From assembly GCA_946415785.1 (NCBI GenBank), contig CAMKTV010000002.1, forward strand, positions 16,093-80,092: 64,000 nucleotides of DNA. The letters are read 5' to 3'. Origin of the DNA: an uncultured Solobacterium sp. Lineage in GTDB: Bacteria > Bacillota_I > Bacilli_A > Erysipelotrichales > Erysipelotrichaceae. This document shows positions 1,498-44,386 of the stretch, piece by piece (positions within the stretch are counted from its first letter, which is position 1; each line of letters starts with the position of its first letter). A program made the position numbers and the translations under genes. Below the pieces are notes generated by a model that saw nothing but the letters and a program-made list of their open reading frames with translations, had not been told where the DNA came from and made no database searches.

Positions 1498-3144
1498 TTA
1501 TACTTCGATATGGCCTAGAGTAATTAAGCGTCCATTCTTTCTAGAGAATAACATTACATTATTGCCCTTGAATTCAATATCAGCTTTATCACCAATCTTA
1601 TATACAATGCCACCAAACATAACGCCTGTTAATAGATATTTATTATCAATAGCAACTCTTACAGTAGTTTCCATGCCAGTAGGCATTGATGAATAGATTT
1701 CACCTTTAATCTTAGCGTCAGGTCTAATATCGATGAATTCAGGTCTAACACCAATTACGAAGTCTTCTTCAGTTAATACAACTTCATCACCATAGTCTTC
1801 AAATTCATCAACTTTAGCAACATGGTATTTGAAATTAGTTTCTTTATTACTCTTTTCAACAAAGCCTTTTTGGCTTGCTTTTATAGCTAATTCTTCTTTA
1901 GCTTTAGCTAAGTTTTCTTCATCTTCTTTGTACCATTGATTTATATCTAAACCTTCATTTGGAACAAATTTGATTTGTTTATCTTCAAATATATTTAAAG
2001 ATAAAGAACCATCACTATTTTGTTTTCCCTTAGCATCGATAAAGTTGATTGCAGGATTACCAACGAAGTCAGCTACAAATAGATTGTTTGGCATATTATA
2101 TACATCTAATGGTGCATCATATTGTTGTAGTAAGCCGTTATCAATTAAACAAATTCTTGTAGCTAAAGTCATAGCTTCCATTTGATCATGTGTAACATAT
2201 ACAAATGTTGAGCCTGTTTCTAGATGTAATCTTTGAAGTTCAGATCTCATTTCAAGTCTTAATTTAGCATCTAGGTTAGACAATGGTTCATCCATGAATA
2301 ATACTGTTGGTTCTGGTGCTAAAGTTCTTGCGATAGCTACACGTTGTTGTTGACCACCAGATAATTCTGCAGGATATCTATCCATGAACATACCAATCTT
2401 AACAATTCTTGATACTCTTCTTACAGCTAAATCAATTTCTTCTTTTGTTAATCTTCTTTTTTCAAGAACTTGAACACCATCTTTTGAATATGTGAAATCT
2501 TCATTTAAGATTAAGCCTTTACCTTCTGCATTTGCTCTAGCTTTATCAATAATAAGTTCTAATTCAGCGATGTGATTATTTGCTTCATCTGTTGGATCTT
2601 CAACATTTTGAAGTTTATATCCTAAGATTTTCTTAGCTGAATATTGAGAGATTTCATAATTATCAATTAATTTAATCATGGCCTTGTTTTCATCTAATTT
2701 ACCTTTACGGTCATAACATTCATTGATAATCTTAACAATCTCGGTTGGCTTATTTAAAGCATTAATAATTTGTTGAGCTGCTCTAGCCTCTGTATTAATC
2801 TTTAACATTTCTTCATTAACATTTGTTAAACCAAAAGAAATATTTTGATATACAGTCATATTTGGCCACAAAGCATAGTTTTGGAATAAGAAACCAACTT
2901 TTCTCTTATTAGCTGGAATATTTATTCCTTCTTCTGAATCATATACTACTCTATCACCGATAGTAATCTTACCGCTTGTTGGAGTTTCTAGACCAGCAAT
3001 CATTCTTAATGTTGTAGTCTTACCACAACCAGACGGACCTAATAAAGTAACAAAGGCATTGTCTTCGATTACTAAATCAAGATCATCAACAGCGTAGAAT
3101 TTATCATAACGTTTTGTTACATGTTCTAAAACAATTTTAGGCAT
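1498..3144 (-). CDS. ABC transporter ATP-binding protein (MalK/FbpC-type) with large insertion
   Basis: Walker A GPSGCGKTT, Q-loop QNYALWP, signature LSGGQQQRVA, Walker B VLFMDEP, C-terminal OB/TOBE region; ~120-aa insertion between Q-loop and signature. Confidence 0.93.
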   Translation of the reverse strand: MPKIVLEHVTKRYDKFYAVDDLDLVIEDNAFVTLLGPSGCGKTTTLRMIAGLETPTSGKITIGDRVVYDSEEGINIPANKRKVGFLFQNYALWPNMTVYQNISFGLTNVNEEMLKINTEARAAQQIINALNKPTEIVKIINECYDRKGKLDENKAMIKLIDNYEISQYSAKKILGYKLQNVEDPTDEANNHIAELELIIDKARANAEGKGLILNEDFTYSKDGVQVLEKRRLTKEEIDLAVRRVSRIVKIGMFMDRYPAELSGGQQQRVAIARTLAPEPTVLFMDEPLSNLDAKLRLEMRSELQRLHLETGSTFVYVTHDQMEAMTLATRICLIDNGLLQQYDAPLDVYNMPNNLFVADFVGNPAINFIDAKGKQNSDGSLSLNIFEDKQIKFVPNEGLDINQWYKEDEENLAKAKEELAIKASQKGFVEKSNKETNFKYHVAKVDEFEDYGDEVVLTEEDFVIGVRPEFIDIRPDAKIKGEIYSSMPTGMETTVRVAIDNKYLLTGVMFGGIVYKIGDKADIEFKGNNVMLFSRKNGRLITLGHIEV

Positions 3145-3147
3145 ATT

Positions 3148-4953: not shown

Positions 4954-4978
4954 TAAAAACCTCTTTCTTTATAGACAA

Positions 4979-5010
4979 AGTGCCTTTGTAGATAATGCTA
5001 CAAAGGCACT
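4979..5010 (-). promoter_or_regulatory. intercistronic stem-loop between solute-binding protein and permease genes
   Basis: Perfect 13-bp stem AGTGCCTTTGTAG-ATAATG-CTACAAAGGCACT; only a weak T tract follows. Confidence 0.7.
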
Positions 5011-5043
5011 ATTGTTGTTTCCTTTAAATAATCAAATCAGTTA

Positions 5044-6375
5044 TTATTCTGGTTTGTATTTATCTTGCATTTCAATCCAAGAACCAACTGTGAATGCAAC
5101 AGAAGCGCAGTATGCAGGATCTTCTACAACTAACTTACCTTCGTTAACCCACCAGTCATGTCCTTTATCCATTGTAGTTTCAGTAGCAACTTTTGAAGAT
5201 TCACCAGTTGAGTGATGGAATTTTTCTTCTGTGCCCTTAGCAACTTCTGGATTTGAAGAATAACCACCAATATCCTTACCCCATGCAGAGAAACCATCAA
5301 CAGTTTCAGTCATGTAAGCGATGAATGCACATGCAGTCCAAGGAAGTGGTGAGTTGTCAGTTACGAATAAGTAATGGCAGTAACCATAACCACCAAAGCC
5401 TTCATAACCTTCTTGGTATGCAGCAACTTTAATGTTTTTTACTGATACTGTATCTGTTTCTTCAACTGAACGAACTTTAGAATAAACTAATAGACCGAAT
5501 TTATCAACAGCACTAGAATCAACTAATGTATTGCAGATAGGGCCATCATCAGTTACAGCATTATAGCTGTTAACCCATAATTTAATCCAAGCTAGTGCAT
5601 ATTTACCATTTTCATCTAAGCCTAAATCAGCAGCTTCTTTTTCCATAGCATCAACTGTAGGTTGGAAATATGATTTAGAAGCAGAATCTAATTTTTCATA
5701 AGCTTCTTTTAATACTAGAGCATATTCAGGTTTAGTTAACATGTATAAGAAGTTCTTACCAACGATTTCAGAATCGATGTCCATAAATAGACCATGTTCG
5801 CCTTCTCTTACGAAATCCCAACAATTAGTATAAGTCTTTTCAGGATTTACGCAGTTGTATTCAAAGATTTTATTTAATAATTGAAGAGCTAAATAACCTT
5901 CATAAGCTTCAGGAGTAGTTCCATTAGCTTCAGCCCACTCTTTTGGAATGAAAGTATCTAGGATACCAGTTTGAACCATCTTAGTTTCAATTTGGTTACC
6001 ATCTTGAATTAAAGTCATAGCGAATGTGCCGACTTCCTTCAAACTATCAGCAGTTAATTGATCGAAAATCTTGTTGTTCTTTGGTTGTTGCCATTCAAAG
6101 TTCAAAGTGTATGAAGAATCGAAAGATTGTAAGTATTCAATGAATAGAGGTAATGCTGATTTACCACGGCTAGAGTTACCAACACCATAGAATGTCTTAC
6201 CATTTGATTCTTCGATAGCCTTTTGAGCAAGCTCTTCGAGAGTCATTGTTTGTGCTTCAGCGATGATCTTTTGTACTTCAGAAAGTTCTTCGCTTCCACC
6301 CTTGTTGCCACCTTGACAAGCAGTTAATGATAGAACCATTAACAAACTAAGTAGCATAACTAAAAGTTTTTTCAT
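5044..6375 (-). CDS. ABC transporter extracellular solute-binding lipoprotein
   Basis: Lipobox MKKLLVMLLSLLMVLSLTAC; position upstream of permease/ATPase genes. Confidence 0.88.
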   Translation of the reverse strand: MKKLLVMLLSLLMVLSLTACQGGNKGGSEELSEVQKIIAEAQTMTLEELAQKAIEESNGKTFYGVGNSSRGKSALPLFIEYLQSFDSSYTLNFEWQQPKNNKIFDQLTADSLKEVGTFAMTLIQDGNQIETKMVQTGILDTFIPKEWAEANGTTPEAYEGYLALQLLNKIFEYNCVNPEKTYTNCWDFVREGEHGLFMDIDSEIVGKNFLYMLTKPEYALVLKEAYEKLDSASKSYFQPTVDAMEKEAADLGLDENGKYALAWIKLWVNSYNAVTDDGPICNTLVDSSAVDKFGLLVYSKVRSVEETDTVSVKNIKVAAYQEGYEGFGGYGYCHYLFVTDNSPLPWTACAFIAYMTETVDGFSAWGKDIGGYSSNPEVAKGTEEKFHHSTGESSKVATETTMDKGHDWWVNEGKLVVEDPAYCASVAFTVGSWIEMQDKYKPE

Positions 6376-6399
6376 CTTATTCTCCTTTTCTCACATATA

Positions 6400-6417
6400 A
6401 ATGTAAGCACTTACATT
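6400..6417. promoter_or_regulatory. cre/LacI-type operator-like palindrome upstream of the ABC operon
   Basis: AATGTAAG-CA-CTTACATT, 8-bp perfect arms, just upstream of the solute-binding protein gene. Confidence 0.5.
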
Positions 6418-6588
6418 ATATCACTTAGCTAACTTCTAGTATCAAGAAAATAGTGTTTTTAAAGATAAAAAATTAATACTTGACAAAATAAAAAGATCTA
6501 GTTTTTTCGATTATTTAAATATTCATGGGGTTTTATAAACTACAATAATGTAGTTCTTTTATTATAGTTGTATTAGGAAGTTTTTGTT

Positions 6589-6938
6589 ATGGAAATTGAA
6601 GTTATTCCTAATACCGGCTTATATGAAGAAGACATAAAGAAATTCAAGATAGTTAGAAGAGATGATGGCGAAACAAATTATTACGTTACTTTAGTTAATA
6701 AAGGAGGGAGATGCTTTAGTTGTGGAACTTATACTACTAAGTGAACCATGTCGTCTAATGCAAGATAGAAGGAAAGAATTCTTATATAAAGAAAATGTTA
6801 AAACTAGCGAATGGTTTTTCCAATTTTGATAGATTTAGAAATAGAGCTATGTATTGTGAAAACTATTATGATACATATTCAACAGAAAAATTGCCTAACA
6901 AAGTTAAAAGAAAATTCCCAAAGAAAAAGACCGATTAG
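6589..6938 (+). pseudogene. degenerate ISL3-family-like transposase remnant (N-terminal zinc finger piece 6589-6744; C-terminal piece 6795-6938)
   Basis: MEIEVIPNTGLYEEDIKKFKIVRRDDGETNYYVTLVNKGGRCFSCGTYTTK* and MLKLANGFSNFDRFRNRAMYCENYYDTYSTEKLPNKVKRKFPKKKTD*; the GFSNFxxFRNR tail is ISL3-like; central catalytic part missing. Confidence 0.6.
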
Positions 6939-28179: not shown

Positions 28180-28749
28180 CTAGTAATCATAGTCATCATA
28201 TAATTGGTCCATGAGACCTCTTCCATCAATTTTCCATTCTTTATCTTTTTTAATCAATCTTATACCTATATCGTATTCTTTGTCTGGAACATTTTTTCTC
28301 TCTTCTTTAATGAATTTTTGAACTTCATTTTTAATCTTTTTTTCACTTGCTCCATTCAATAGCAAGCCAAGCATGTTTGGTAACAGTTCAACAGAAATGT
28401 CTGTCATTATTGTTTCCCAATCTTCGCAGGTTATTCTCACATAAGCAATCGCTTCATCGCCATCTTGTTCAATTTCTTTAACTTTATATTCAAAGCCAAA
28501 GAAATCATCATCAAGATATGATGATATTTCTTTAAACGCTTTTGAATTAATGATGTTGTTAGCATAGTTAGCTAACATTCTTGCTTCATCGCTGTCACCT
28601 AAATAAATCTTTTGTATTGTCTTAGTGTCACCATTCTTGAGTGCTTTCATAAATGATTCAGCAGTTCCCTTAGGTGTTGATGTAGATGAACATGCACACA
28701 AGTTAAATAATAACAATAAAGATAATAACGCTATTAATACTTTTTTCAT
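28180..28749 (-). CDS. lipoprotein, DUF4878-like (NTF2-like)
   Basis: Lipobox LFNLCACSSTSTPKGTAESFMKALKNGDTKTIQKIYLGD. Confidence 0.7.
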   Translation of the reverse strand: MKKVLIALLSLLLLFNLCACSSTSTPKGTAESFMKALKNGDTKTIQKIYLGDSDEARMLANYANNIINSKAFKEISSYLDDDFFGFEYKVKEIEQDGDEAIAYVRITCEDWETIMTDISVELLPNMLGLLLNGASEKKIKNEVQKFIKEERKNVPDKEYDIGIRLIKKDKEWKIDGRGLMDQLYDDYDY

Positions 28750-28809: not shown

Positions 28810-29880
28810 TTATAACGGATATTTATCAGTTGTAAATGGTGTTTCATCACAAATCATTGCTTCACGTGATAATGGATATCTTTCTTCATATAAACGGAAG
28901 CCAATTCCATATTCATCTTCTCTGTTTCTGGTAATAAATTCTTCACGCTTTGCAGCATCAATTTCACCAATTAAATAAAGATATTGTATTTCTACCCATT
29001 TAGCCATTCCTTCGTAGATGATTAAACGTTTATTTTTAGCACATTTTTTAAGCTTTTTGTTTCTATCCCAATGTGTATATTGCCATATATGTGTTAATTC
29101 ATGGGCAAAGGTTGCGATTAAAGTTAATCTAGGAGCTCCGTTTTCTAAAACAACACTATATTTCTTATGCTTATATATTGCTACGCCTAATACCAATATA
29201 CTCTGATTGTCTATTGAGCCAATGGCACCAGCTTTTTTCTTAAGCTTACGATGCTCTATTACTTCTATAGAAACAGGAACATTTATTGTTGCCCCAAAGA
29301 ACATTTCTAGATTTAAAATAATTCTTTTATAAATATCTTCTACTTCTGTTCTCGTTTTAACTACCGTATTGCTACATGTGTTGCATCTATAGCGACCATC
29401 AGGTAAACGATCATATTCAACGCCCGTTATCTCTGAGCCACAATATGAACAGAACATTTGATTGTCTTTTTTATCTTGGATACTCTTAAAATAATCTGCG
29501 CTGTTCTTTTGTTCACGTGCCTTTTTTAATTCTCCACCATCAAAGCCATTACTTTGTAAAAAGTTTTTTGTGCCACTTAAATCTAATGGCGTGACTCTTT
29601 CTGAATCATGATATTTTAAATAATATCTTTCATTGTAAGGTGGAATAAATCTTTTACCAATTACAGGATAACTATCTAACGAACCTTCTTGATCTTCTTT
29701 AGGTGATTCATCGTTTTCTTCGTTATTCTCTTCTTGGTTTTCACTAGATGGCTCATCGTTTTGAGGATTGTTTTCTTCTTCTTTTTCTTCTTCTATTTGC
29801 TCATCTAATGTTGGAGTATCTGAATCTTCTTCTATTCCAGTGACTTTTTCTTCTTCAACTAGATTTTCTATTTCACTCAT
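28810..29880 (-). CDS. DA1-like zinc metallopeptidase with N-terminal zinc ribbon and acidic N-terminus (start adjusted to MSEIENL...)
   Basis: Zinc ribbon CSYCGSEI...YRCNTCSN; peptidase motif FAHELTHIWQYTHW with downstream YEGMAKWVE; DA1-like spacing. Confidence 0.7.
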   Translation of the reverse strand: MSEIENLVEEEKVTGIEEDSDTPTLDEQIEEEKEEENNPQNDEPSSENQEENNEENDESPKEDQEGSLDSYPVIGKRFIPPYNERYYLKYHDSERVTPLDLSGTKNFLQSNGFDGGELKKAREQKNSADYFKSIQDKKDNQMFCSYCGSEITGVEYDRLPDGRYRCNTCSNTVVKTRTEVEDIYKRIILNLEMFFGATINVPVSIEVIEHRKLKKKAGAIGSIDNQSILVLGVAIYKHKKYSVVLENGAPRLTLIATFAHELTHIWQYTHWDRNKKLKKCAKNKRLIIYEGMAKWVEIQYLYLIGEIDAAKREEFITRNREDEYGIGFRLYEERYPLSREAMICDETPFTTDKYPL

Positions 29881-32800
29881 CTTCCTCCACCTTTCCTTCT
29901 TCATCTAAAGAATCATCCTCAATAGGTGTTGATTCATTTTCCTCTTCACTATCTTCAACTTCAGAATCTTCTTCGCTCATTTGATCATCTGCTTCTTCTT
30001 CGTCTTCTTCAGCTTCAGATTCTGTTTCTTCTTCGCTCACTACTTCTTCGCTGTTTTCATCATCATTTTTCTCTTCAACGATATTGTCGTCATTTTCTTC
30101 AGTTGTAGCAGTTTCCTCGTTTGGAACATCTGAATCAGTTTTGTCTTTATCTTCGTCTTTTTTCTTCTTCTTGAAAAGATTCTTGATAAATTCAATTATT
30201 CGCTTAAAGAAAGGCTGCTTTCCGCTTTCTTCAAGTTTCTTTCTTCTTTCCTCTTGTTTTGCTTTTCTCTCAGCTTTTCTTTTTTCTTTTGGAGTTAAGC
30301 CTTCTTCGCCAGCTTCTTGTCCTTCTTTATTTTTCTTCTTAAATAATTTCTTGAACCAGCCACCAATACGTTTAAAGAAAGGCTCTTTTTTATTATCTTC
30401 GTATACATTGAATTCTTGTGTTTCTTTCTTTTCAATCTTGACTTCTTTTACTTTTAAGCTTTCTTCGATCATTTCATCATTCCAAGATAAATAATCAGAA
30501 ATCATTTGCAGTATACGAGAAATATTTCTTTCAACAGCACCCAATAATCCTAGATCTAATTGGCTATCTTCAACGATGTAAATGTATTTGCCTTCTTGTT
30601 CTTCGTCGAAATCAAGACTATATGTTAATGGTGCAGTAAAACTTCCGTTAGTTAATGCACAAATAAATGGTTGGTTTTCTGCAAACAATGATACAAACAA
30701 TTCGTTAAGTAAGTTAGTTAAAGTTACTCTTACATCATCATTGAATTCATCACCAAATTTAGAGAAATCCAATTTAAGAATTTGCTTGTGATGATAATTA
30801 CGTGAAGGAACATTGTTTAAACTGATTAAATCAGAAGCATCAAAATCATTGTATGCTTTTTGTTTCCAATAGCCTTTTGTATCAACACTGAAATCCGCAA
30901 ATTGATAATAGACATCAATATCATTGATTGTCTTCAAATCGCCCATTGTTTTAGAGTCTTCTACACTATGAATTGTATAATTACGCAATTGACGATAAGT
31001 TAATCGGCCATTAATGTGGTCAGATGCTCTACGAACTAATATTCTGTTATCAGCTGTAGTTGTTACCATTTCGTAATATTTACCATTAAGTGTAAAGAAT
31101 TGTCCTGGTAAATATTTCTGATATACATGACCTTTTAATTCACTTCCAATAAAGTTATCAACGTCTTCTTCTTCAGAAATGTATTTTGCATTCTGTAAAT
31201 CATCTAAGATAACACTATAAAACTTTTCATCTTCAATAGTATAAATATTCTCATATTCACCACTATCAGGTCGATATTCTCTCTTTAATAGAATTGTTTC
31301 ATCTTTTTCAAAGACTAACTCTTCACCACTAGGCTTAGTATATATTAAGTCTGGAACACCTGATGACTTAGTAATGTCTTCTTTTCCAAAAATAATACAT
31401 ATTTCTTTCCATAGTTCAAGTAAAGGATTTTCTGTATCCATTCCTTGAAGTTCGAGTTGTCTTAATAAAACTTTTTCTTCAATATCTTCTACACATAACA
31501 ACAAGCACAAAGATAATATTGCATTGCGTCTTGTACGTACATAGTCAGCAGCAATATATGGAATCGCTTTTGGATCCACTCTAAATATCTCTGGATTGCT
31601 AGTCATATATTCACGCATCATGTATTCATTTGATATGACATTAACAAAGCCTTGTTGTTCTGTTATTGTTGCGAAATTACGTCTTGTTTCAAATAGATTT
31701 TTTCTGTCATCTTCAACTGTTAAAAATGCTAAATTGCTAACTCTTTGATTACAGATATTAAATGATGTTTTAAAGTACTCATCAAAAGTTTCCTGATTCT
31801 TAGGAAGTTTTGCATAACTTAATAATTCATAATAATACTGTTTAGCTATCCAGTGTGCATCAATAACAGGGAAAGTTTCGCATCCATACCAAATGGCGTT
31901 TTTAATCTGATTTTTTAATGCCACCATTGATAATTCTGTTCCTAGTCCTAAGAATCTAGAGATACCAGGTACAATACGGTGTTGAAGATAATCATCATCA
32001 GCAGTCCAGCACATATATGAACTAATGCCATGAGGATGTTCAGTAGCTGAAACTTCTGTTATGTTTGTCATTAAAATATGCGATAAAGAGTCAACCAGTC
32101 CATCACAGTTACGGTCTATAGAACAATATGTAACCTGTCTTTCTTTTCCACAACACTTCATAAGCATGTGTAAACCAACCTGAGCGGTTGTCACAAGCTT
32201 TGAAGGTTCTATTATCATAACAAAAGATACTTTTTGTAAGAAGTCTTTAAATACTCTATGTATTTTCAAATCATGAACACCAGATCTTGTAATGATACCG
32301 ATATCTGGCAATTCTTCTTCTTCATTTCTATCTTTTGATAAAACTTCAATTTTCCAGATATTAGGAATATGTGCTAATTCACCCATTCCTTCATCTAACC
32401 AGTTCTTCAGATCATTTTCTGAGCCGTGCTGTCCTAAAACAACAAGAATTTTTCCACTATTCAGCAATTCATGATTCATTGAATAGAAAACATATGGATT
32501 CAATTTGTCATAAAAAGGTGTATTAAATAATAAGCTCTTTCCATTTGCCAAATCATAACCTGAACGAACATAATCAACATTTGGTTTTAGGCCGCCATCC
32601 ATTAGTTTTCTTATAAACATTGAATAATTGTTCGCAAGATTGCCACCTTCTTTTTCAATGTTCATTAATATATCTTCGACTGAATTAATTGCACTTCCTG
32701 ACTCATTAACAGTAATGCCACCTGTTGAAAGTTTATCTCCAAATAAATCCATTAATGGCTTTCTAAGTTTTGCATAAAAAGCGAAATGTCTAGATTTATC

Positions 32801-33493
32801 TTTTTGAACTATCAGGTCTGCTTTTTCATCTTTTTGTAATCCATCAATAAAGAATGCAAATTCACCAACTATTATGATTGAGAAAAATGGATAATAAGGT
32901 TCACTTACTAAATTCTCCATGCATAAGTAAAATGTAACAAGCATTCCAACTACGGATATACCACAAATACCATAATAAGCAGTTTTTAAATATGACCGAG
33001 CTTGGCCAAAATGATCTTTGATATACCACGCTTCATCATTTTCGTCATAATAGTAGAATATTTCAACAAGAGAACCAATAAATGAGTTCTCGTTAATAGT
33101 GATTTTTTTCATTATTGCCGTTAAAATCTTTTTCAATGTTACATATACTGTAAGTGCGGCAGTATTAAAAAGAACTACTTCTAGAAATATTCCCCAACTT
33201 GTATATAAGTTTCTTATACCATTTCCGATAAAACTCAAGAAACTTACCATTTCAAAAATCTTAGCTAATCCTAAGAATAGATTAAGCAAAAGATCTGATA
33301 ATTTATTCAACAAGAAAAACATTATGATGCTATAAATAATTGCAACTAGTGGCATTGCGAATTGATTGCATCTTTTTTCTTTTGGTGTATTAGCACTGTT
33401 ATTGCTTTTAAACGCAAGAAGCATAAAAGGAAGAAAAGACAACGCTATAGATAATAGTTTAATTATTTTCATATATTTCTTCCTTTCTTGCAA
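29873..33493 (-). CDS. large multi-TM membrane protein with degenerate NTPase/helicase-like core and long basic-then-acidic C-terminal tail
   Basis: 1206 aa; N-terminal TM helices; duplicated PFFKRI..F.K.LFKKK motif; D/E-rich tail; overlaps upstream gene. Confidence 0.75.
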   Translation of the reverse strand: MQERKKYMKIIKLLSIALSFLPFMLLAFKSNNSANTPKEKRCNQFAMPLVAIIYSIIMFFLLNKLSDLLLNLFLGLAKIFEMVSFLSFIGNGIRNLYTSWGIFLEVVLFNTAALTVYVTLKKILTAIMKKITINENSFIGSLVEIFYYYDENDEAWYIKDHFGQARSYLKTAYYGICGISVVGMLVTFYLCMENLVSEPYYPFFSIIIVGEFAFFIDGLQKDEKADLIVQKDKSRHFAFYAKLRKPLMDLFGDKLSTGGITVNESGSAINSVEDILMNIEKEGGNLANNYSMFIRKLMDGGLKPNVDYVRSGYDLANGKSLLFNTPFYDKLNPYVFYSMNHELLNSGKILVVLGQHGSENDLKNWLDEGMGELAHIPNIWKIEVLSKDRNEEEELPDIGIITRSGVHDLKIHRVFKDFLQKVSFVMIIEPSKLVTTAQVGLHMLMKCCGKERQVTYCSIDRNCDGLVDSLSHILMTNITEVSATEHPHGISSYMCWTADDDYLQHRIVPGISRFLGLGTELSMVALKNQIKNAIWYGCETFPVIDAHWIAKQYYYELLSYAKLPKNQETFDEYFKTSFNICNQRVSNLAFLTVEDDRKNLFETRRNFATITEQQGFVNVISNEYMMREYMTSNPEIFRVDPKAIPYIAADYVRTRRNAILSLCLLLCVEDIEEKVLLRQLELQGMDTENPLLELWKEICIIFGKEDITKSSGVPDLIYTKPSGEELVFEKDETILLKREYRPDSGEYENIYTIEDEKFYSVILDDLQNAKYISEEEDVDNFIGSELKGHVYQKYLPGQFFTLNGKYYEMVTTTADNRILVRRASDHINGRLTYRQLRNYTIHSVEDSKTMGDLKTINDIDVYYQFADFSVDTKGYWKQKAYNDFDASDLISLNNVPSRNYHHKQILKLDFSKFGDEFNDDVRVTLTNLLNELFVSLFAENQPFICALTNGSFTAPLTYSLDFDEEQEGKYIYIVEDSQLDLGLLGAVERNISRILQMISDYLSWNDEMIEESLKVKEVKIEKKETQEFNVYEDNKKEPFFKRIGGWFKKLFKKKNKEGQEAGEEGLTPKEKRKAERKAKQEERRKKLEESGKQPFFKRIIEFIKNLFKKKKKDEDKDKTDSDVPNEETATTEENDDNIVEEKNDDENSEEVVSEEETESEAEEDEEEADDQMSEEDSEVEDSEEENESTPIEDDSLDEEGKVEEDE

Positions 33494-35561
33494 TTATACT
33501 CAAAATAATATTTGTAGGTACATCTACAAAATTACCCCTGTCGACAAATTCAATTCTTAAACTGTCAAAGTTTCTGATTGGAGCAGGGTAAGTATATTCA
33601 TGTATCTGAGTGAAGTCATAATTAAATGGCTCAATTAGGTTTTCATCGCAATCAGTAATATCACCAATATAATCTTTATATGATTCTTTAAGTTTCGCTC
33701 TTACTTTACGTATTTCTTCTTGATGTTTTTTTAGAACATTTATGCTTTGTGTATATTCGTCAACAACTTTTTCTGTGTTTTGTAAAACATTATTGCTTCT
33801 TCTAACACTGCATGAAGCACTTAAATATTCTGAGCATTGTCTTAAGAATGATTTAATATTTGAAAGAACATCATTTACGGTATTGTTGTAATCTTTTATT
33901 AAGCTGATTAGTGAAGATCTCATTAATAATAAAGATATCAAAAGAATAACAAGTAAAAGCCCTAAAGATACTAATGTAATTATTAAGGCAATTGATGTTG
34001 TATCATAACCGGCATTTGAAGAAATGATGAAAGGTAAAAAGCCAATCAAGTACAATGCAAAAACAATGATTGTCAGAATAATGCCACTCTTTTTAGTCAT
34101 ACGTGTATTGATTTTCTTCTTGATATTTTCAGAAGAATTCTCAATCTTTTTTTGATATGAAGAAAGAGCGACATAGTTATCAGGAATTGATTCAATCATC
34201 TTATTTTCTTCTTTTTCCGCAAATTCCCTGATGTCATCAATTTGGAATTGAGTTAAACGACTTATATCAGAACTAATTCCTTGGCTTGCAATATTAGCTT
34301 GTACAATACTTTTCTTTATTGAACGTAACTGTTGTTTACTGATATAAGCTAATTCTTCTTTGGAAGCATTATAATCTTTTTTCCACTTGCTATGTTCATT
34401 TTCTGGGCTGTCATAGAACAAACCATAGTCTTTTTCAACATATGTGTTTTCTTCTTTACAAGAATTATCTAAAACGACAGGGATGTCGCTTGGCGTACAA
34501 AAATGTAATGAGGCATCTTTATCACTCAAGCTGCCAGGAATCTCACTTCTGGTTTTTTCAATTTCGCTATTTATTGATTCATAAGTGTTAGCTAATTTTT
34601 TATCATATGTTGTAATCAGTTTATATAATGGTCCATCATCAGTTTCAACATCAATTCTATATAAATGTCTAGATTGAATAGAACTGCTTGAAATAGGATT
34701 CGTTGCCACAATCAAACATATGGTTAAAAAGAAAATATAATTTGAACGAAAATCCTTATGTGAATATGGAAGTGCATCATACACTAAGAAACGCATTTTA
34801 TCAAAATACATATTGCGATCTACAAATTGTGAATACTGTTTACCTAAATCAGTATTCCAATAATCCTCTGGATTAAAGAAATCTTTTTCAACAACACGAG
34901 GAGTAATACACAACACATGTATTGGATAATTAATATTCAAATATTTTTCATCAATAAAAGCGCTGCGTAACTGCTCCTTCAAACGCATTTCTTGCGTATA
35001 ATATGTTTTCCTTAATTTCTGTATTTCATCATCAAGGCTTTTTCCATTGTTTTCTTTATATATTTCTTCTAAAACTAAATCAGTTTCATCTACTTTTCCT
35101 TTATAATCATTTTTTATAAATTCAGTAGGTTTAAAACAAAGCCATGTAGATAGTTTTGTTAGTGGAAGTGCAATTGCATTTTTATAAACATTTTCTTTTT
35201 CTTTTGCTAAATTCTCGTAATATTCTTTCCACAACGAAAGAAGCTTCTCTTTAGTTTCGCTTTCTTCAATATTGTAGTCTGGTTCAACTAGTTCATCTAA
35301 AGACTCGTGATTGACCACATCAAAAGGATTTCGAAGCCTTGCAATTTCTTCGCTTAAATTATTAATGATGATTGCTCGCCATTCTTTTTTCTTGCCTACA
35401 ATATCTTGTAGTTCAGGGACAGCCTCTTTTAAAGTCTGTCCCTTAGTGTTCCAATAGCAAAACGCAAGGTCCTTATTATTAAGAAACGGCTCAAAAAACA
35501 ATTTATCATCAGTTCGGATTGCATCAATATATGATTTTTCCGCTATTAAAACTGTGAACAA
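33459..35561 (-). CDS. uncharacterised membrane protein with two central TM helices and coiled-coil regions
   Basis: 700 aa; TM segments IILTIIVFALYLIGFLPFIIS and IALIITLVSLGLLLVILLISLLL; in operon. Confidence 0.75.
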   Translation of the reverse strand: MFTVLIAEKSYIDAIRTDDKLFFEPFLNNKDLAFCYWNTKGQTLKEAVPELQDIVGKKKEWRAIIINNLSEEIARLRNPFDVVNHESLDELVEPDYNIEESETKEKLLSLWKEYYENLAKEKENVYKNAIALPLTKLSTWLCFKPTEFIKNDYKGKVDETDLVLEEIYKENNGKSLDDEIQKLRKTYYTQEMRLKEQLRSAFIDEKYLNINYPIHVLCITPRVVEKDFFNPEDYWNTDLGKQYSQFVDRNMYFDKMRFLVYDALPYSHKDFRSNYIFFLTICLIVATNPISSSSIQSRHLYRIDVETDDGPLYKLITTYDKKLANTYESINSEIEKTRSEIPGSLSDKDASLHFCTPSDIPVVLDNSCKEENTYVEKDYGLFYDSPENEHSKWKKDYNASKEELAYISKQQLRSIKKSIVQANIASQGISSDISRLTQFQIDDIREFAEKEENKMIESIPDNYVALSSYQKKIENSSENIKKKINTRMTKKSGIILTIIVFALYLIGFLPFIISSNAGYDTTSIALIITLVSLGLLLVILLISLLLMRSSLISLIKDYNNTVNDVLSNIKSFLRQCSEYLSASCSVRRSNNVLQNTEKVVDEYTQSINVLKKHQEEIRKVRAKLKESYKDYIGDITDCDENLIEPFNYDFTQIHEYTYPAPIRNFDSLRIEFVDRGNFVDVPTNIILSIIARKEEIYENN

Positions 35562-35586: not shown

Positions 35587-38500
35587 TTAGATAACTGAAC
35601 TATCTTTGAATTCTTTAGCAATTCTATCTAATAATAATTCATAATCTTCTGGTTCTGGTGCTGACATGATTACATCACGGATCTTCTTTTGAATGATTTC
35701 CATGATTGGATTATCAGCAGCAGGTACAGCATGCATTTCATCAATATAGAATTGATAATTACGTTCTAATAAAGTCAACTCATCAACTAAACGAGTACAC
35801 AAAACAAATTTAACGTCTTCTGGTTTTTCCCATTTAGTATATTCACCACGTAATACATCAATTACAGCATCTACCATTGAATCAAATTCAGCAACAAAAC
35901 GATCTGAATTTGGTAAAGAACAATAGAACGCTAAAGGTATTTCTAATATACTGTTAGGATTTTCAACGTAGCGTTTGCCATCATCTTCGATATTTTCTAA
36001 TTCTTTGTTTGCCTTATTTTGTTTGTATCTTGCTTCTTTATTCTTTCTAATCTCGCTTCTTAGCTCTTCTAGACTCTTTTGTGTTCCATCATAAATATTA
36101 TTTTTGTTTTTCTCATCAGAGCCAAGTAAAGCAAATAGGTCAAATGAAGCCATGTCTTTGAAGAATTCAGTATTTTCATAATTACAGTTCTTTGCAGCAC
36201 TTACTGCTTTTCTTAAAGATGCGATCTTATTGATGTCTTCTACAACTCTATAATTTACATATAAAGCTTCTAATATTTCATAGAATTCATCACACAATGT
36301 ACCATTTGGAACTTGAAGTTCTTCATCACGGTTGCTTGAATTTCTAAATGCATAAACATTCTTTCCGTTAGCAACATTTGATAATGGACGAAGTTGAATT
36401 GCTTTATGAATTAATCCATAAATAAATGCTTTGTGAACTTTCATAATAACTTGTTTTTGATAGTTAAAGTCTAGTTCAGGCATTTGTTTAATTGAATCCC
36501 ATGCTTTATCGATATGTGTTGAAACTGCAGCATTCTTTGTAGAATCAGGGCCAATTAAATTTGAGTATTCAACATAAGCTCTATGATATGTACCTGGTTT
36601 CTTTTCACCAGTTTCTGTCTTAAATGGAGCAGCAAATTTCTTCAATTTATCTGGTGTTAAATTGTATAACGCATTGAAGAAATGAATTTCATATTTAGAA
36701 ATTGTATCTACTGCTTCACCCTTAGGCATTAAGTCTCTTACACGAATTCTACGATTATCTAGTAATGATTTATTGAATGCACAAGCTTTGATTTCTCTTG
36801 ATTCTTCATTAGGCATTCTTTGAATTGATGGAGCAGCAATACGTGTTCCTTTTTCAATAACTTCAAAGATATGTCTCTTAACATCTTCGATAGTAACTTT
36901 TTCAAATACTTGTTCGCTGCCATCGTTTTCTTCACGTAAACGAATTCTTTCTTGTAAACGTTGTTCTAATTCAATAGCACCAATAATGTCGATATTGATA
37001 TCATCACACTTATCAGCAACGCTATCTCTAAAATAACCCATAAGAATATCATCAAAGATATTTACTCTGCGGTCTGCTTCAATTGATTCGCCGCCTGCTT
37101 TCTTTAACTCAATGTTAAATACAGCATTGTTTTTAACTGCATCAAAGATTCCTCCACTAATATCTGAGCTTAACATAGTTGTTTCTTTTTGAATCTTTTG
37201 TAAAGAGAATTTACTTAATTCTTTTAGAAGACTTTCAGTTGCACAAATATTAATAAATGAATCACCTTTTTGATATTTAAGTTCATCTACTAAATCAGTT
37301 TGGTTTCTATTTAAGTCTTTAACTTTAGCAGCAAATGTATTAAAGAAAGCTTCAAATTGAGCAGAGAATTCTTTTAGATATTCTAATGCTTTTTGATAAG
37401 CTGCAAAGTTTTCAACTAGCTTACGATAGTTCTCTATTGCTTTAAAATATGCAGGAACATCAGTATCAGCCTCATCATATATCTTTTTATAACCTTTTAG
37501 TTTTTGTCCTAATGTAGGTTCATTTTCTGATACTTCAGCTAGATTATCAATACCGATAATTTTTGTTTTAGAGAATTTTAAGTCATCATATTCTTTTTCT
37601 TGGAATGATCTAATTCTCTTTTCTGCTTCTTTGATTTCATTTTCTGCGCCACTTGTAACTCTCTCACTTAATTTATCTAATAAACGATATAAAGCAAAAC
37701 GAGTTGCACATGGATGGAAAACTTCTTTTTGAACATTCTTAATAAGTTGTTCAAAACTATAAGCATCTTCAATTGCAAGTGTTTTTCTTTCATTAGTAAA
37801 TACAGCTTCAACCCAACGAGCAGCAATCTTGCCAATGATAGGATTATTGTCGTCTTTACCTTTTTCTGCGATTTTCTTATGATATTGTTTTATCTTATAA
37901 ACTGCTTCGCTAATCTTCTTTTCAGCTGAGAAGCCGCTTGTTGCACGACTAGCAGCAGGTTCGTATAAATCTTTAATTCCACTGTCATTTAAAACTGCTT
38001 GATTGACAGCATCTTCAAACTTTTCCATGTAATCCTCAATTTTTGAATCAAAATCATTTAATTCATATGAGTTTACAAGGTCTTTTGAGAATGCGTCTGT
38101 TGCGTTTAGCATAGTATCACAGAACACTTTTCCATATGAATCCCATGTTGACATTGGAATACCACGTTTCTTTTGTTCTGCTTGATAAAGTTTAACTGCT
38201 TTATCATATTTAGTCCATTTAGTTGCTTCGCCTTCACCACCTATACTATCCATTGCTAAATCGTATGCTACATATTCAACAACTTTTTCGTATGGGTAAC
38301 GAATTACACCAGCACCAATGCCACCAAAACGATTACGTCCATAGTTGCCTGGTTTAGCCATTTCTTTAATGATATTGTCTTCTTCTGAGAAAGCCTTCTT
38401 TTGCATTGGACCTACGTTTTGTTCATATAGGGCTTGTGCTGCTTGTTTTTCATATTGGTTAGTACTTATCATTGTGCTATCTTCAGCATCTTGACCATCC

Positions 38501-39315
38501 ATTAAGAAACAGAAGTCCATTGGTAATAATGATAGAGATTTTAATCTATCTGAACCTGCAACTGGGAAATCTACATGTAAATTAGCATATTGTTTTAGAT
38601 CATCATCTAAATCAATAAAGCCTGAACCTTTCATCATGAAAGCGTTGATTTCTTTAATTGTTGCATAAGCATTTCTAGCTTGGCTATCTCTTTCTGTTTG
38701 TGATTCGATAACACTATCTAATGTTTCAGGAAGCAATAACAAACCACGAACTAACAAACTTGTATTAGGATATTTTTCTTTTACGTAATCACGAATATAC
38801 ATACTGATAGGTAAAGCAATACCTGAACCAGTACCACCTGATGCAGTTGTTGCAATAACAACACGCATTGTTTGTTTCATGGCTTTTCCTGTTTTACGGA
38901 AAAGGTCATCGATTGCATCATACAAAGGACGAATCTTACCAGTTTTAATTGTTGAGTTAAATGCTAATCTTGAAATAGCTCTAACTTGTCCTGCACCTTC
39001 AGAAACTGTTTTATCATACATAACAGCGTTCTTAGGGAACCATTTTTTACGAGCTTCTTCATCATAGTCAAGATAGCTTCCTACTGTTTGCGTATTTGAT
39101 GTTTGTACCCATCTAATAGCTGATCTTCCATTTGCAATGCCTGTTAAGTCATTAACATTGGTATCTAGACAAAGAAAATTAATATTTTCTTTTTCTTCTG
39201 GGGCACACATATCAGCTACTTTCTTTACAATACGTCCTCCAGTACCACCGACACCAACAAACAATGTTGGCGCAAGAACTTCATTTGGTTTTAACAATTC
39301 TTTTTTACTTTCCAT
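35587..39315 (-). CDS. tubulin-like (FtsZ/tubulin superfamily, tubulin_2-type) protein
   Basis: N-terminal LFVGVGGTGGRIVKKV nucleotide-binding loop and VIATTASGGTGSGIALPI tubulin-type signature; 1242 aa. Confidence 0.85.
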   Translation of the reverse strand: MESKKELLKPNEVLAPTLFVGVGGTGGRIVKKVADMCAPEEKENINFLCLDTNVNDLTGIANGRSAIRWVQTSNTQTVGSYLDYDEEARKKWFPKNAVMYDKTVSEGAGQVRAISRLAFNSTIKTGKIRPLYDAIDDLFRKTGKAMKQTMRVVIATTASGGTGSGIALPISMYIRDYVKEKYPNTSLLVRGLLLLPETLDSVIESQTERDSQARNAYATIKEINAFMMKGSGFIDLDDDLKQYANLHVDFPVAGSDRLKSLSLLPMDFCFLMDGQDAEDSTMISTNQYEKQAAQALYEQNVGPMQKKAFSEEDNIIKEMAKPGNYGRNRFGGIGAGVIRYPYEKVVEYVAYDLAMDSIGGEGEATKWTKYDKAVKLYQAEQKKRGIPMSTWDSYGKVFCDTMLNATDAFSKDLVNSYELNDFDSKIEDYMEKFEDAVNQAVLNDSGIKDLYEPAASRATSGFSAEKKISEAVYKIKQYHKKIAEKGKDDNNPIIGKIAARWVEAVFTNERKTLAIEDAYSFEQLIKNVQKEVFHPCATRFALYRLLDKLSERVTSGAENEIKEAEKRIRSFQEKEYDDLKFSKTKIIGIDNLAEVSENEPTLGQKLKGYKKIYDEADTDVPAYFKAIENYRKLVENFAAYQKALEYLKEFSAQFEAFFNTFAAKVKDLNRNQTDLVDELKYQKGDSFINICATESLLKELSKFSLQKIQKETTMLSSDISGGIFDAVKNNAVFNIELKKAGGESIEADRRVNIFDDILMGYFRDSVADKCDDINIDIIGAIELEQRLQERIRLREENDGSEQVFEKVTIEDVKRHIFEVIEKGTRIAAPSIQRMPNEESREIKACAFNKSLLDNRRIRVRDLMPKGEAVDTISKYEIHFFNALYNLTPDKLKKFAAPFKTETGEKKPGTYHRAYVEYSNLIGPDSTKNAAVSTHIDKAWDSIKQMPELDFNYQKQVIMKVHKAFIYGLIHKAIQLRPLSNVANGKNVYAFRNSSNRDEELQVPNGTLCDEFYEILEALYVNYRVVEDINKIASLRKAVSAAKNCNYENTEFFKDMASFDLFALLGSDEKNKNNIYDGTQKSLEELRSEIRKNKEARYKQNKANKELENIEDDGKRYVENPNSILEIPLAFYCSLPNSDRFVAEFDSMVDAVIDVLRGEYTKWEKPEDVKFVLCTRLVDELTLLERNYQFYIDEMHAVPAADNPIMEIIQKKIRDVIMSAPEPEDYELLLDRIAKEFKDSSVI

Positions 39316-39334: not shown

Positions 39335-41521
39335 TTATTTTTTCTTAGCCAAACTTATCGTAGTATAGATGTTAAATTTTTCATCTCTATTATTACTTCT
39401 TTCGGTTCCTGACATTCTAATTTCAGTTTTATCTTTTATTTTGATTGTCTTCTTCAATAAATTTTCATCTACTGGTTCTAAGTTTCCAGTTTTTTTATTT
39501 ACTTTAAATGCAACATTGCCTATTTCAACATCGGTTATATTTCCCGCAACTCTTTTTATTGTGCCAGGTTTTGCAGCAAAGCTTCTATTTTTGTTACTTT
39601 TACGTAGATAGCTATCATCTCCAGGTTTAACAGATATTGTAAATACTTGTTTTTGACCTACTGGAGCTTCACCAGCTATTTTTAAGGTGTCTCCTTGACG
39701 TGTAGCATTTACGTTTAAACCAAGATCTTTTCTATTGAATGTTGCCTTATTGTCTTTTGTACGAATTTTTCTTGGATACACTTTTCGATGCAGCAACCAA
39801 ATCAATATAGCCAAAGCAAGTAGAGCAATACCAAAACGTTTTGCCCACTTTAACCATAAAGGCGTCTTGCTTAATGTGATGTGTAATAAATCATTTGCAT
39901 GTGCTTCTCTTTCGGCAAAATCTAAATAATCGGCATTTGCCTTGATTGTATATTTGCCTTCTTCCATCTCACCTTTTGATTCCAATTTTAATAGATATTG
40001 AGATTTAGATTCATTAGGTGTTAATTTAAATGGTAAACCTTGAGCATCTGCTGTTAATGTTATTGCAGCAAATTCTTCAGGACTTAATTTTTGTCCATCA
40101 ATTGTTAAATCTATTACGATTGCATCACTTTTATCTATATCACTAATTAAAATGTAGCTTTCATCAATAGACATTTTTAAGTTAAGTTTCCCAAGTGGTG
40201 AAGCTAATACTCTAATTCCGCCCGTTGGCCAACCAAAGTCTGCTGAATCTTTTGAAATAGTATAACCACTTAAATAAGTTACAGTTAGGTCAGCTTCAAA
40301 AGTATCATTCATTCTTAAAGCTACAGGAACTTCGCCATTGTATCCATCATGTTCAAAATTGGTTTTTTCACCATTTACTGTGTAACTGCCTTCATAATGT
40401 GGATTACCTAATAAATCTGAAGAAATCAATTGACCAGTTTTAGCATCTTTCATACCAAAACTAACTTTATAGTCACCTTCATATAAAGATGTTGGATCTA
40501 CATCGTTTCCATCAGAATCTGTAAAAATGAATTCTAGATCAGCATCTGGTTCATAATATATTTCAACACTTGAAGCAGTGCCGTTGTATTCAATATTATA
40601 GCTACCTGCTATGCAGTCTTTATAAGTAACCATCATTCCTTGTAAAGAAGTATCTGGATTGCTTGGATAATCTCCTGCTCCTTTTGTTGAATAACTGGTT
40701 TGTTGTGAATTAACAAGAGTTGGCATTTCTCCATTTGTTGTTAACTTTAAATCTGAAATGTTATCACCTTGTACAAAGACGATTAACTTTTTCATTGAAA
40801 TATCAAAATCTATTGTATTTCCTGAAACATGGTTTCTTGGAAGAACATCTCTACCAAAAACCAGATTACATAGTTCAGTTAGTGTTGATAAAACACCTTC
40901 AGAATTTACAACTTTCCTTTTAACAAAATATTCACTTTCTGCTGTAGCAGGAACACAAGCCTCTTGGCCAATGCCAAGATACATTACTGATATTTCTTTG
41001 CCAGCATTGTCTTGAACTCTTTTATCTAATTCAACCACTGTTCTTTCTTTTGATAAACCAACACCTTTTTTATTGAAGGTACCACCATCAGTAAGAACCA
41101 CTAAATATTTTTTATCAGCAACTGTTTTCTTTAATCCTTCAAGAGCGAAATCAATACTCTCGATTGGTGTTTTACCTGCATCTTTGGTAAAAATTTCACG
41201 TAAAGAAGATGCCTGTTTAGGGCTTGTCAATTTAAAAGGATTTTCCATGGAATATTCAGCGTTATTAACTTCCACTGGATGCATTGGGTATATTTCTAAG
41301 CTATCTCCATCATTAAGCATAGATGCAAATACTTCCATTGCATAGGTTGCTCTACACCACGCTTGATTGCCACCCATATACATTGATCCAGAGTTATCAA
41401 AAACTATCGCGATTGCACGTGATTGATTTGTTTTTGGTGATGCTTGTATTTTTGGGGAGCCAATTGTAACAATCAACATTATGGTAATTGCTGCAATAAA
41501 AACTTTTAAGACTTTTTTCAT
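39335..41521 (-). CDS. vWA-domain membrane protein (signal peptide, vWA, beta domains, TM, cytoplasmic basic domain)
   Basis: MIDAS DNSGSM, TPIESIDFALEGL, VVLTDGGTF; TM ALLALAILIWLLHRKVYPRK. Confidence 0.88.
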   Translation of the reverse strand: MKKVLKVFIAAITIMLIVTIGSPKIQASPKTNQSRAIAIVFDNSGSMYMGGNQAWCRATYAMEVFASMLNDGDSLEIYPMHPVEVNNAEYSMENPFKLTSPKQASSLREIFTKDAGKTPIESIDFALEGLKKTVADKKYLVVLTDGGTFNKKGVGLSKERTVVELDKRVQDNAGKEISVMYLGIGQEACVPATAESEYFVKRKVVNSEGVLSTLTELCNLVFGRDVLPRNHVSGNTIDFDISMKKLIVFVQGDNISDLKLTTNGEMPTLVNSQQTSYSTKGAGDYPSNPDTSLQGMMVTYKDCIAGSYNIEYNGTASSVEIYYEPDADLEFIFTDSDGNDVDPTSLYEGDYKVSFGMKDAKTGQLISSDLLGNPHYEGSYTVNGEKTNFEHDGYNGEVPVALRMNDTFEADLTVTYLSGYTISKDSADFGWPTGGIRVLASPLGKLNLKMSIDESYILISDIDKSDAIVIDLTIDGQKLSPEEFAAITLTADAQGLPFKLTPNESKSQYLLKLESKGEMEEGKYTIKANADYLDFAEREAHANDLLHITLSKTPLWLKWAKRFGIALLALAILIWLLHRKVYPRKIRTKDNKATFNRKDLGLNVNATRQGDTLKIAGEAPVGQKQVFTISVKPGDDSYLRKSNKNRSFAAKPGTIKRVAGNITDVEIGNVAFKVNKKTGNLEPVDENLLKKTIKIKDKTEIRMSGTERSNNRDEKFNIYTTISLAKKK

Positions 41522-41552
41522 ATCTTAAATCTCACATTTCTTAAATAGATTT

Positions 41553-41870
41553 TTATTGTTTTACAAATTCAGCGCCGTCTATAAATATGGATTTACCTTT
41601 TCTTTCAAAGCTCCAATCCCAATTAGTTTTTACGCCAAGCAAACTATATGTCACTGTCAGCTTATTATTTTCGATTTTATATTCGCCTTCAATATCAACG
41701 CCAAAAGCTGATACTACAATCGTGTTATCTCTATTAAATGTTATTGTTTGTTTAATGATTCCGTTATCATTAACATATGTTCCATTTAATTTTGTTTCAC
41801 ACGCAGAAAAAATGCACACTACAAAAAGTGCACTAATTAAAGTTATTAAAAACTTCTTGCAACAATTCAT
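41553..41870 (-). CDS. small lipoprotein (lipocalin-like fold probable), first gene of the tubulin-like operon
   Basis: Lipobox FVVCIFSACETKLNGTYVNDNGIIKQTITFNRDNT. Confidence 0.75.
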   Translation of the reverse strand: MNCCKKFLITLISALFVVCIFSACETKLNGTYVNDNGIIKQTITFNRDNTIVVSAFGVDIEGEYKIENNKLTVTYSLLGVKTNWDWSFERKGKSIFIDGAEFVKQ

Positions 41871-41900
41871 CTTAACCCCTCACGTATTAGCATTTTGTAG

Positions 41901-41917
41901 CATAATTATTATTATGT
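41901..41917 (+). repeat. left arm of 17-bp inverted repeat (candidate recombination site)
   Basis: CATAATTATTATTATGT; exact reverse complement of 42108-42124. Confidence 0.85.
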
Positions 41918-42039
41918 TGTAAATTAATATAAATAATATATAAAGCCCTATTTATAAAAGGATAAAAACCTTAAAAATATTTATTTTTATAATGTTTTTC
42001 TAACAAGAGCTGTTATTTTAAAAATTTTCTAAAAATTAG

Positions 42040-42068
42040 TTTACAAAGAAAATCATAAATAATATAAT
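42040..42068 (+). promoter_or_regulatory. sigma-A-type promoter inside the candidate invertible segment, oriented rightwards
   Basis: TTTACA (42040-42045), 17-nt spacer, TATAAT (42063-42068). Confidence 0.7.
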
Positions 42069-42107
42069 TAAAACACTTTAAAAAAGGATTTTTTAGTATT
42101 TTTAGTT

Positions 42108-42124
42108 ACATAATAATAATTATG
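42108..42124 (-). repeat. right arm of 17-bp inverted repeat (candidate recombination site), directly abutting recombinase stop codon
   Basis: ACATAATAATAATTATG; reverse complement of 41901-41917. Confidence 0.85.
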
Positions 42125-42970
42125 TTATTCAATCATTTGCATCTTTTCCATATAACGTGCATGCTCTTTTCCTGTTGAAATAATATATATACGAGTTGTG
42201 TTGATATTGCTATGACCAAGAACATCTGCTAATTTGGCTATATCTCTTTCGATATTATAGAAAGCTCTCGCGAATAGGTGTCTAAGATTGTGAGGGAAAA
42301 CTTTGCTTGGATTTACATCTGCATCTATACATAGTTCTTTCATTTCTCTCCATATATAATTCCTACATATAGGTTTCCTATTTCTTGTAACAAAAATAGA
42401 TCCTGAAACTATTTTTTCTTTTGAAACATAATCCAAAAGTTTCTTTTGTAAATTATGGACAATAAAAATTGTGCGTGTTTTGCCTTTGCATGAAACTATT
42501 GCTTCTCCCCTGTTTATTGCTTCAACTGTTATATGTTGTAACTCACTTACTCTTATACCAGTTGCGCATATTGTCTGTATTATTAAAGATAAACGTTCAT
42601 TATGCTTTTCTAAAGCAGCTTTCACTAATCTTTTGTATTCGTCTTTTGTTAGTTCTTTTTCTTCTGGATAGAATATTTGCTGCTGTATTTTATAAGTTTT
42701 AACTTTTAGTTCATTCCAATTTAAATAATCAAACAAACTGTTTATGCTTGATAACATCGAGTTAATGCTTCTTATTGCATAATTACTTTCTTTTAGATTT
42801 TTCTTATATGCTATTACTAGTTCTTTATTTAAATCTTTTCTTTCAATATAATTAAAGAATTTTTTGATATCTCTGCTATATTTTTCAATAGTTGCACCAC
42901 TCTTTTCCTCTAAAATCAAATGCTTTTTAAACATTTCAATTTTAGATCTAGTTAAATTATAATAATTCAT
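42125..42970 (-). CDS. tyrosine recombinase/integrase (candidate DNA invertase)
   Basis: Catalytic motifs ATGIRVSEL (R), HNLRHLFA (HxxR), LGHSNINTTRIYI (H...Y); 281 aa. Confidence 0.93.
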   Translation of the reverse strand: MNYYNLTRSKIEMFKKHLILEEKSGATIEKYSRDIKKFFNYIERKDLNKELVIAYKKNLKESNYAIRSINSMLSSINSLFDYLNWNELKVKTYKIQQQIFYPEEKELTKDEYKRLVKAALEKHNERLSLIIQTICATGIRVSELQHITVEAINRGEAIVSCKGKTRTIFIVHNLQKKLLDYVSKEKIVSGSIFVTRNRKPICRNYIWREMKELCIDADVNPSKVFPHNLRHLFARAFYNIERDIAKLADVLGHSNINTTRIYIISTGKEHARYMEKMQMIE

Positions 42971-43000
42971 TTGTTTTACTCCTTTCTAATAATATGAAAA

Positions 43001-43034
43001 CATAAAAAAGCTGAACTCGTGTGAATTCAGCTTT
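43001..43034 (-). terminator. terminator of the S10-spc-alpha operon downstream of rplQ
   Basis: AAAAGCTGAA-CTCGTGTGAA-TTCAGCTTTT perfect 10-bp stem with TTTTTT on the minus-strand 3' side. Confidence 0.8.
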
Positions 43035-43057
43035 TCATTTTGAATATCAATTAATAA

Positions 43058-43414
43058 TTAAACTAATTCGATAGTTGCAACCTTAGCGTTATCGCCTCTT
43101 CTAATTGCAGTCTTAGTAACTCTAGTGTAGCCACCTTTTCTATCTGCATATTTAGGAGCAACTTCTTCAAATAATACTTGAACAGCAGTCTTGCCATCCT
43201 TATTTGAAACATTTCTTAAATAAGCGCTTGCTTGTCTTCTTGCAGCTAAATCATTCTTCTTAGCGACAGTGATTAATTTTTCAACCACGCCTCTTAATTC
43301 TTTAGCCTTCATCTCTGTAGTTTCAATCTTACCTCTTAAAACAAGTTCAGTAGCTAGGTTTCTAAGTAATGCTTTACGATGGTCGGCTGTACGACCTAAT
43401 TTACGATTTTTCAT
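43058..43414 (-). CDS. rplQ: 50S ribosomal protein L17
   Basis: [25 protein letters not shown]. Confidence 0.98.
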
Positions 43415-43423
43415 AAGCTCCTC

Positions 43424-44386
43424 CTACTCATAATTATTCTTGAATGATAGACCAAGCTCATTAAGTTTTTCTTTAACTTCCTTAAGTGATTTCTTACCTA
43501 AGTTTCTTACATGAGCCATGTCATCTTCGGTCTTTTGTGTTAATTCTTCAACTGTAGAGATACCAGCTCTCTTTAAACAGTTATAAGATCTAACAGTTAA
43601 ATCTAAATCTTCAATTGACATATTAACTGCTTTCTTATTGAATTCATGAACATTTTCTTCCATTAATGAATCCATATCAGAAACGATAGTGTCAACTTCA
43701 GTTAATAATTCAAAGTGTGAAATCAAGATCTTTGATGCTAAAGCAATTGATTCTTTTGGATTGATTGAGCCATCAGTCCAAATTTCAATTGTTAGTTCAT
43801 CATATTTAGCGCTTTGGCCAACACGAGTTGATTCAACTTCATAATTAATTTTTGTTACTGGTGTATAGATAGCATCTGTATAGATAGTACCGATACCTTG
43901 AGATGAACCTTGATATAAAGCCTTGTTTTCATCTGCAGAAACATAGCCTCTACCATTTCTTGCCATAAGTTCCATATTTAATGAACCGCCTTCATCTAGA
44001 TGAGCGATTTCAAGTTCAGGATTTAAGATTTCTACACCACCTGGTAAGATAATGTCTTTTGCCTTAACTGTGCATGGTCCTTTAGCAGAAATTCTTAATG
44101 TATAAACATCATCATCCATAATTGAGAAGATTAATGATTTAATATTAAGAATCATTAATGTTACATCTTCTTTAACACCTTTGATTGATGAGAATTCATG
44201 ATAAACGCCATCAATCTTAATTGAATATACTGCGCCACCTGGTAATGATGACAACATAACTCTTCGTAATGCATTTCCAAGAGTTGTGCCATATCCTCTC
44301 TCTAAAGGTGAAATAACAAATTTTCCATAGTTATCAGATTCAACATATTCTGCAATTTTAAATTTTGGACGTTCAAATTTTTGCAT
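43424..44386 (-). CDS. rpoA: RNA polymerase alpha subunit
   Basis: PLERGYGTTLGNALRRVMLSSLPG; C-terminal domain LDLTVRSYNCLKRAGI. Confidence 0.98.
   Translation of the reverse strand: MQKFERPKFKIAEYVESDNYGKFVISPLERGYGTTLGNALRRVMLSSLPGGAVYSIKIDGVYHEFSSIKGVKEDVTLMILNIKSLIFSIMDDDVYTLRISAKGPCTVKAKDIILPGGVEILNPELEIAHLDEGGSLNMELMARNGRGYVSADENKALYQGSSQGIGTIYTDAIYTPVTKINYEVESTRVGQSAKYDELTIEIWTDGSINPKESIALASKILISHFELLTEVDTIVSDMDSLMEENVHEFNKKAVNMSIEDLDLTVRSYNCLKRAGISTVEELTQKTEDDMAHVRNLGKKSLKEVKEKLNELGLSFKNNYE

Follow-up and report, generated by a model that had tools for sequence, protein, structure and literature searches.

Gene organization and inverted sites at the locus

The 64 kb stretch of DNA analyzed here (the window) carries a seven-gene operon on its minus strand, preceded by a tyrosine recombinase gene on the same strand. 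The first operon gene (41553..41870, minus strand) encodes a predicted lipoprotein of 105 amino acids with weak lipocalin-like similarity. It is followed by the gene for a candidate von Willebrand A-type (VWA) protein (39335..41521, minus strand) with a signal peptide, a transmembrane segment and a MIDAS-like motif; the VWA_2 match of this protein (E = 0.0089) falls below Pfam's cut-off, and its DxSxS motif is visible in the sequence as DNSGS. The third gene (35587..39315, minus strand) encodes an FtsZl1/Tubulin_2 protein of 1242 amino acids that matches PF13809 with 183.6 bits against a cut-off of 27 (E = 8.3e-54), as expected of an FtsZl1 operon. The remaining minus-strand genes encode membrane proteins of 700 (33459..35561) and 1206 (29873..33493) amino acids, a zinc-ribbon protein with a weak metallopeptidase-like HELTH motif (28810..29904), and a DUF4878-like lipoprotein (28180..28749). 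None of the seven operon proteins is matched by the PADLOC models for anti-phage defence.

Operons that combine FtsZl1 (Tubulin_2, PF13809) with VWA proteins were described in 2010 as a predicted membrane-remodelling system, a function that is a prediction only (Makarova and Koonin, 2010; PMC2875224). We equate PF13809 with their FtsZl1 on the basis of the shared description and the VWA context rather than a profile comparison. The window operon resembles theirs in placing the tubulin-like protein gene beside genes for a VWA-like protein and membrane proteins. It differs in having no recognised GTPase or kinase gene, both of which are frequent in FtsZl1 operons, and in its probable invertible promoter, a feature that work does not describe (PMC2875224). 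Of the 316 genomes representing the order, 8 contain a relative at E <= 1e-20. The closest operon, from another genus (G269), is 67% identical and has the same gene order, including orthologues of the two membrane proteins and the zinc-ribbon protein; the DUF4878-like gene is the last that the two operons share. The G269 operon carries neither the recombinase nor a site pair, and the switch described below is therefore separable from the operon, having been either added to it or lost from it. In the G269 orthologue of the zinc-ribbon protein (L092, 16043-17044) HSLTT replaces HELTH, and so peptidase activity may not be common to the proteins of both genomes.

The recombinase gene (42125..42970, minus strand) encodes a probable invertase of 281 amino acids (PF00589, E = 1.6e-27). 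Its reading frame is intact and the catalytic residues R140, K164, H227, R230, H253 and Y262 are present in invariant alignment columns, as would be expected of the cognate recombinase of an inverton. Between this gene and the operon lie two inverted copies of the imperfect palindrome CATAAT-TATT-ATTATG. The left, operon-side site (41898..41921, minus strand) is palindromic over 24 bp around the core TATT, and the right, recombinase-side site (42105..42128, plus strand) has the same core and overlaps the recombinase stop codon. Paired 24-bp sites with an identical core constitute an inverted repeat suited to site-specific recombination, and the arms 41898-41917 and 42108-42127 are 95% complementary, with 17 bp perfect. 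If the cut points are placed by the conserved 4-bp core, the segment that would invert spans 208 bp from core center to core center (41909..42116). A gap of 27 nt separates the left arm from the ATG of the first operon gene at 41870, close to the approximately 30 nt first stated, and the AGGGG Shine-Dalgarno sequence attributed to this gene indeed lies upstream of that ATG.

A family of paired sites with matched cores

Searching outward with the recombinase protein gave relatives within its taxonomic order that are 44-63% identical, and in most of them a pair of inverted sites closely follows the 3′ end of the recombinase gene. A scan of genome contigs with the same protein returned one weak relative only. 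In a phylogenetic tree, every site-paired recombinase falls into one clade with support of 98/94, which also includes four recombinases whose contigs end before any second site could show. One further clade member (L047, G064:C3; 51% identity) has no detectable site pair in the flanks examined, and the same holds for 14 loci with more distantly related recombinases. Applied to 98 loci (666 kb), a rule-based scan returned site pairs solely beside clade recombinases, with a single pair in the whole window, and the same scan of shuffled sequence returned none.

When aligned, the sites of the family read ACAACATAAT-N4-ATTATGTTGT, a 24-bp palindromic site present as two inverted copies per locus. 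The core and inner half-sites of both window arms match exactly, and a few outer positions of the left arm deviate from the consensus. The N4 core is identical within the pair at all 15 clade loci that were formally tested, but between these loci the cores are only 26% identical (permutation p < 1e-4). A core that is matched within each pair and unrelated between loci fits the strand-exchange requirement of tyrosine recombinases, and would be unexpected for repeats kept for other reasons. This site rule, a 24-bp palindrome with the same 4-bp core in both copies, also provides a ready finder for further switches of the family.

The family includes phage, integrative-element and plasmid records, and further members lie on viral contigs. 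Two loci, L111 (3831, 3872 and 4123) and L171 (5878-6164), have three sites rather than two, an arrangement that would permit nested inversions or a deletion. The contigs of G290, G127 and G090 break off 20-120 nt past the first site, for which mixed orientation is one possible cause.

Direct evidence for inversion comes from two related viral loci, L108 and L114, whose flanks are 73-80% identical and collinear on both sides (scores 163.5 and 160). The segment between these flanks aligns solely as its reverse complement, with a score of 83 versus 22 in the direct orientation and a maximum of 27.5 among 500 shuffles. A segment of this kind has inverted between these relatives, a result that concerns their lineage and not the window's own strain. 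The L108 and L114 segments are themselves without a well-scoring promoter. No flipped copies of L100 or L108 were found by exact search of the viral contigs, and the window segment shows no homology to that of L004; an all-against-all comparison of segments detected homology only between L048 and L074, which have the same orientation.

The segment promoter and its predicted orientation

The preliminary description had placed a promoter within the flippable segment, and each of its elements is found exactly where it was reported. This sigma-70/A-type promoter (42040..42068, plus strand) consists of TTTACA at 42040-42045, a 17-nt spacer and TATAAT at 42063-42068, and sits 39 nt inside the arm. 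By coordinates and strand it points into the recombinase gene from the 3′ side, with a predicted start near 42075. We scored both strands of the window over the 12 hexamer positions with spacers of 16-18 nt, and this promoter is the only plus-strand site to reach at least 11/12; the minus strand also has one, at 25960. When the inner 190 nt are shuffled 5000 times with dinucleotides preserved, 1.2% of the shuffles attain such a score on either strand, and 0.9% of 1500 attain an equally high weight-matrix score (p of about 0.01). The match exceeds chance, though by itself not overwhelmingly so in DNA of 14% GC, and the label 'strong promoter' given to it earlier denotes a consensus score, that is, a predicted strength.

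No site of 9/12 or better points toward the operon from within the segment; one minus-strand 9/12 candidate (TTTATA-17-AATAAT, 41933-41905) straddles the left arm. Sites of this quality occur there at background level (11 found versus 10.8 expected). DNA this rich in A and T may also hide further promoters on either strand that escape recognition. A search for terminators from the promoter to the recombinase gene found none, and no Rfam family matches 41500-43100.

Across 28 loci of the family, the best segment promoter scores above shuffled sequence overall (combined Z of 8.2, somewhat inflated because a few of the loci are related). Most of the good promoters of relatives lie 22-75 nt inside one arm, with that of L171 at 101 nt, and several relatives have no good match. 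The majority of promoters at well-scoring loci face the recombinase, as in the window, L097, L103 and L172, and those of L053, L098, L111 and L171 face the operon. Both orientations, as are expected for invertons, are therefore represented among relatives by the two promoter directions as well as by the L108/L114 pair. Terminator-like hairpins on the operon-reading strand occur in the inner segments of L046, L048, L074, L076 and L097; the window has none, and we dropped the idea that all these segments carry a terminator.

Inversion in silico keeps both neighboring genes intact, altering neither the recombinase gene at its end nor the first gene of the operon, and aims the promoter at 41870 as had been proposed, so that a promoter internal to the segment would be able to face the downstream operon. 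It would then lie on the minus strand at 41985-41957, with 80 nt separating it from the ATG. In the mechanism we propose, the adjacent tyrosine recombinase would exchange strands at the TATT core of both sites and thereby flip the segment. As assembled, the only good promoter faces the recombinase gene, and the FtsZl1/VWA operon, lacking a good promoter, is predicted to be OFF. After inversion, transcription would start near 41950, yielding an 80-nt leader and switching the operon ON. We place the probability that the 208 bp between the inverted 24-bp sites act as an invertible promoter with these predicted states at roughly 0.86, and the neighboring recombinase is very probably the enzyme that flips them. 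The homologous switches, with their paired cognate sites, their enrichment in promoters of both orientations and the inverted L108/L114 segment, support the original proposal of a flippable segment, a promoter within it and an OFF orientation as a prediction. For the window itself, the activity of the recombinase, inversion in its strain and transcription from the promoter are likewise predictions made from sequence.

Several other explanations deserve consideration. The promoter-like sequence could be a chance occurrence in AT-rich DNA, with the switch employing another promoter or a different element of the segment, as the low GC content, the approximately 1% of shuffles that reach its score and the relatives with no good match would allow. 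However, its distance from the arm falls within the range of most well-scoring relatives, and the family as a whole is promoter-enriched; we judge this explanation unlikely, if the least so of those considered here. Somewhat less probable still is that the promoter in its present orientation serves mainly to keep the recombinase in check through an antisense RNA, control of the operon coming second. The prevalence of recombinase-facing promoters among well-scoring relatives agrees with such a role, but would also be expected from switches biased toward OFF, and the absence of a terminator between promoter and recombinase gene makes an antisense RNA only compatible with the window sequence.

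It is also conceivable, but improbable, that the locus is a former switch now locked by an inactive recombinase or inactive sites, leaving the operon silent or weakly driven from the left arm. No flipped copy is seen in the one assembled genome of the species, the left arm departs from the consensus at its outer positions, and the 9/12 candidate straddling that arm could provide the weak drive. Against this stand the complete catalytic residues and intact frame of the recombinase, and the exact match of core and inner half-sites in both arms. Least credible of all is that these are dif-like sites worked by host XerC/XerD, the neighboring recombinase being incidental. The half-site of the family resembles the XerD arm of dif, half-sites in inverted orientation flank a short center in both kinds of site, and the genome encodes two other Xer-like recombinases. 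Unlike dif/Xer sites, those of the window family are symmetric and always paired and inverted beside a dedicated recombinase; the pairs track a single recombinase clade, are absent beside other recombinases, and each have their own core. The recombinase scores 111.8 and 123.1 bits against the NCBIfam XerC and XerD models, below their cut-offs of 335 and 330. A search of the genome for the standard Firmicutes dif site with up to 3 mismatches found none.

Known invertons, varied cargo and implications

An invertible promoter linked to a recombinase, the reading we favor for the window, is an already known kind of element. Tyrosine recombinases invert promoters in the Clostridioides difficile flagellar switch, which is flipped by RecV (PMC7446863), and in gut invertons (PMC11892184). 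Like these systems, the window switch has a small intergenic segment bounded by short inverted repeats and placed before an operon, a tyrosine recombinase and a predicted reversible ON/OFF logic. It differs in that its recombinase directly adjoins the segment, its sites are 24-bp palindromes whose 4-bp core is specific to the locus, and its cargo is an FtsZl1/VWA operon. For Clostridia of the hCom2 community, the study of gut invertons links an inverton group, 139, to invertase group 35 (PMC11892184), a pairing of tyrosine recombinases and invertons as in the window. Our site family could possibly equal group 139, a likeness drawn from that description. Unless the two prove to be one family, the novelty lies in these sites, in the variety of their cargo and in their location ahead of an FtsZl1/Tubulin_2-VWA operon whose function is predicted.

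Elsewhere the switches precede adhesin/pilus-type genes with a sortase or signal peptidase (L036, L068, L069 and L074), a LytTR regulator (L075) or a helicase (L079). In L098 (IMGVR_UViG_2924261002_000004, 2986-6410) the switch lies before an Eco57I-type DNA methylase, with its promoter toward the methylase genes, and the element also carries ParB-like and serine recombinase genes. The viral contig L103 (IMGVR_UViG_3300022660_000109, 2986-6792), which has a tail-fibre-like gene, bears a switch before an SPFH/zinc-ribbon gene, a cargo it has in common with the G178 chromosome. There (L067, G178:C58, 84-6944) the switch occupies the same rpoA-rplQ-recombinase-switch location as in the window (41553-44386), with SPFH/zinc-ribbon and TIR genes in place of the tubulin-like operon. 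This location is possibly a site of cargo exchange.

A broader reading, which we regard as speculative and improbable in its entirety, is that recombinase and segment together form a portable phase switch whose cores differ by locus, found on chromosomes and mobile elements before unrelated systems such as adhesins, DNA methylases and SPFH/TIR genes. In the window this switch would turn the tubulin-like membrane machine into a means of bet-hedging, possibly directed at phages or neighbors, and the OFF-state promoter would hold the recombinase down through antisense RNA.

Operons of the FtsZl1/VWA type entered the literature in 2010 with a predicted function. A natural ON/OFF switch before one of them would mean that at least one lineage gains from its expression in part of the population, a pattern that resembles the expression of surface structures and defence genes. 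The switch also makes a simple comparison of two orientations possible for an operon of this kind.
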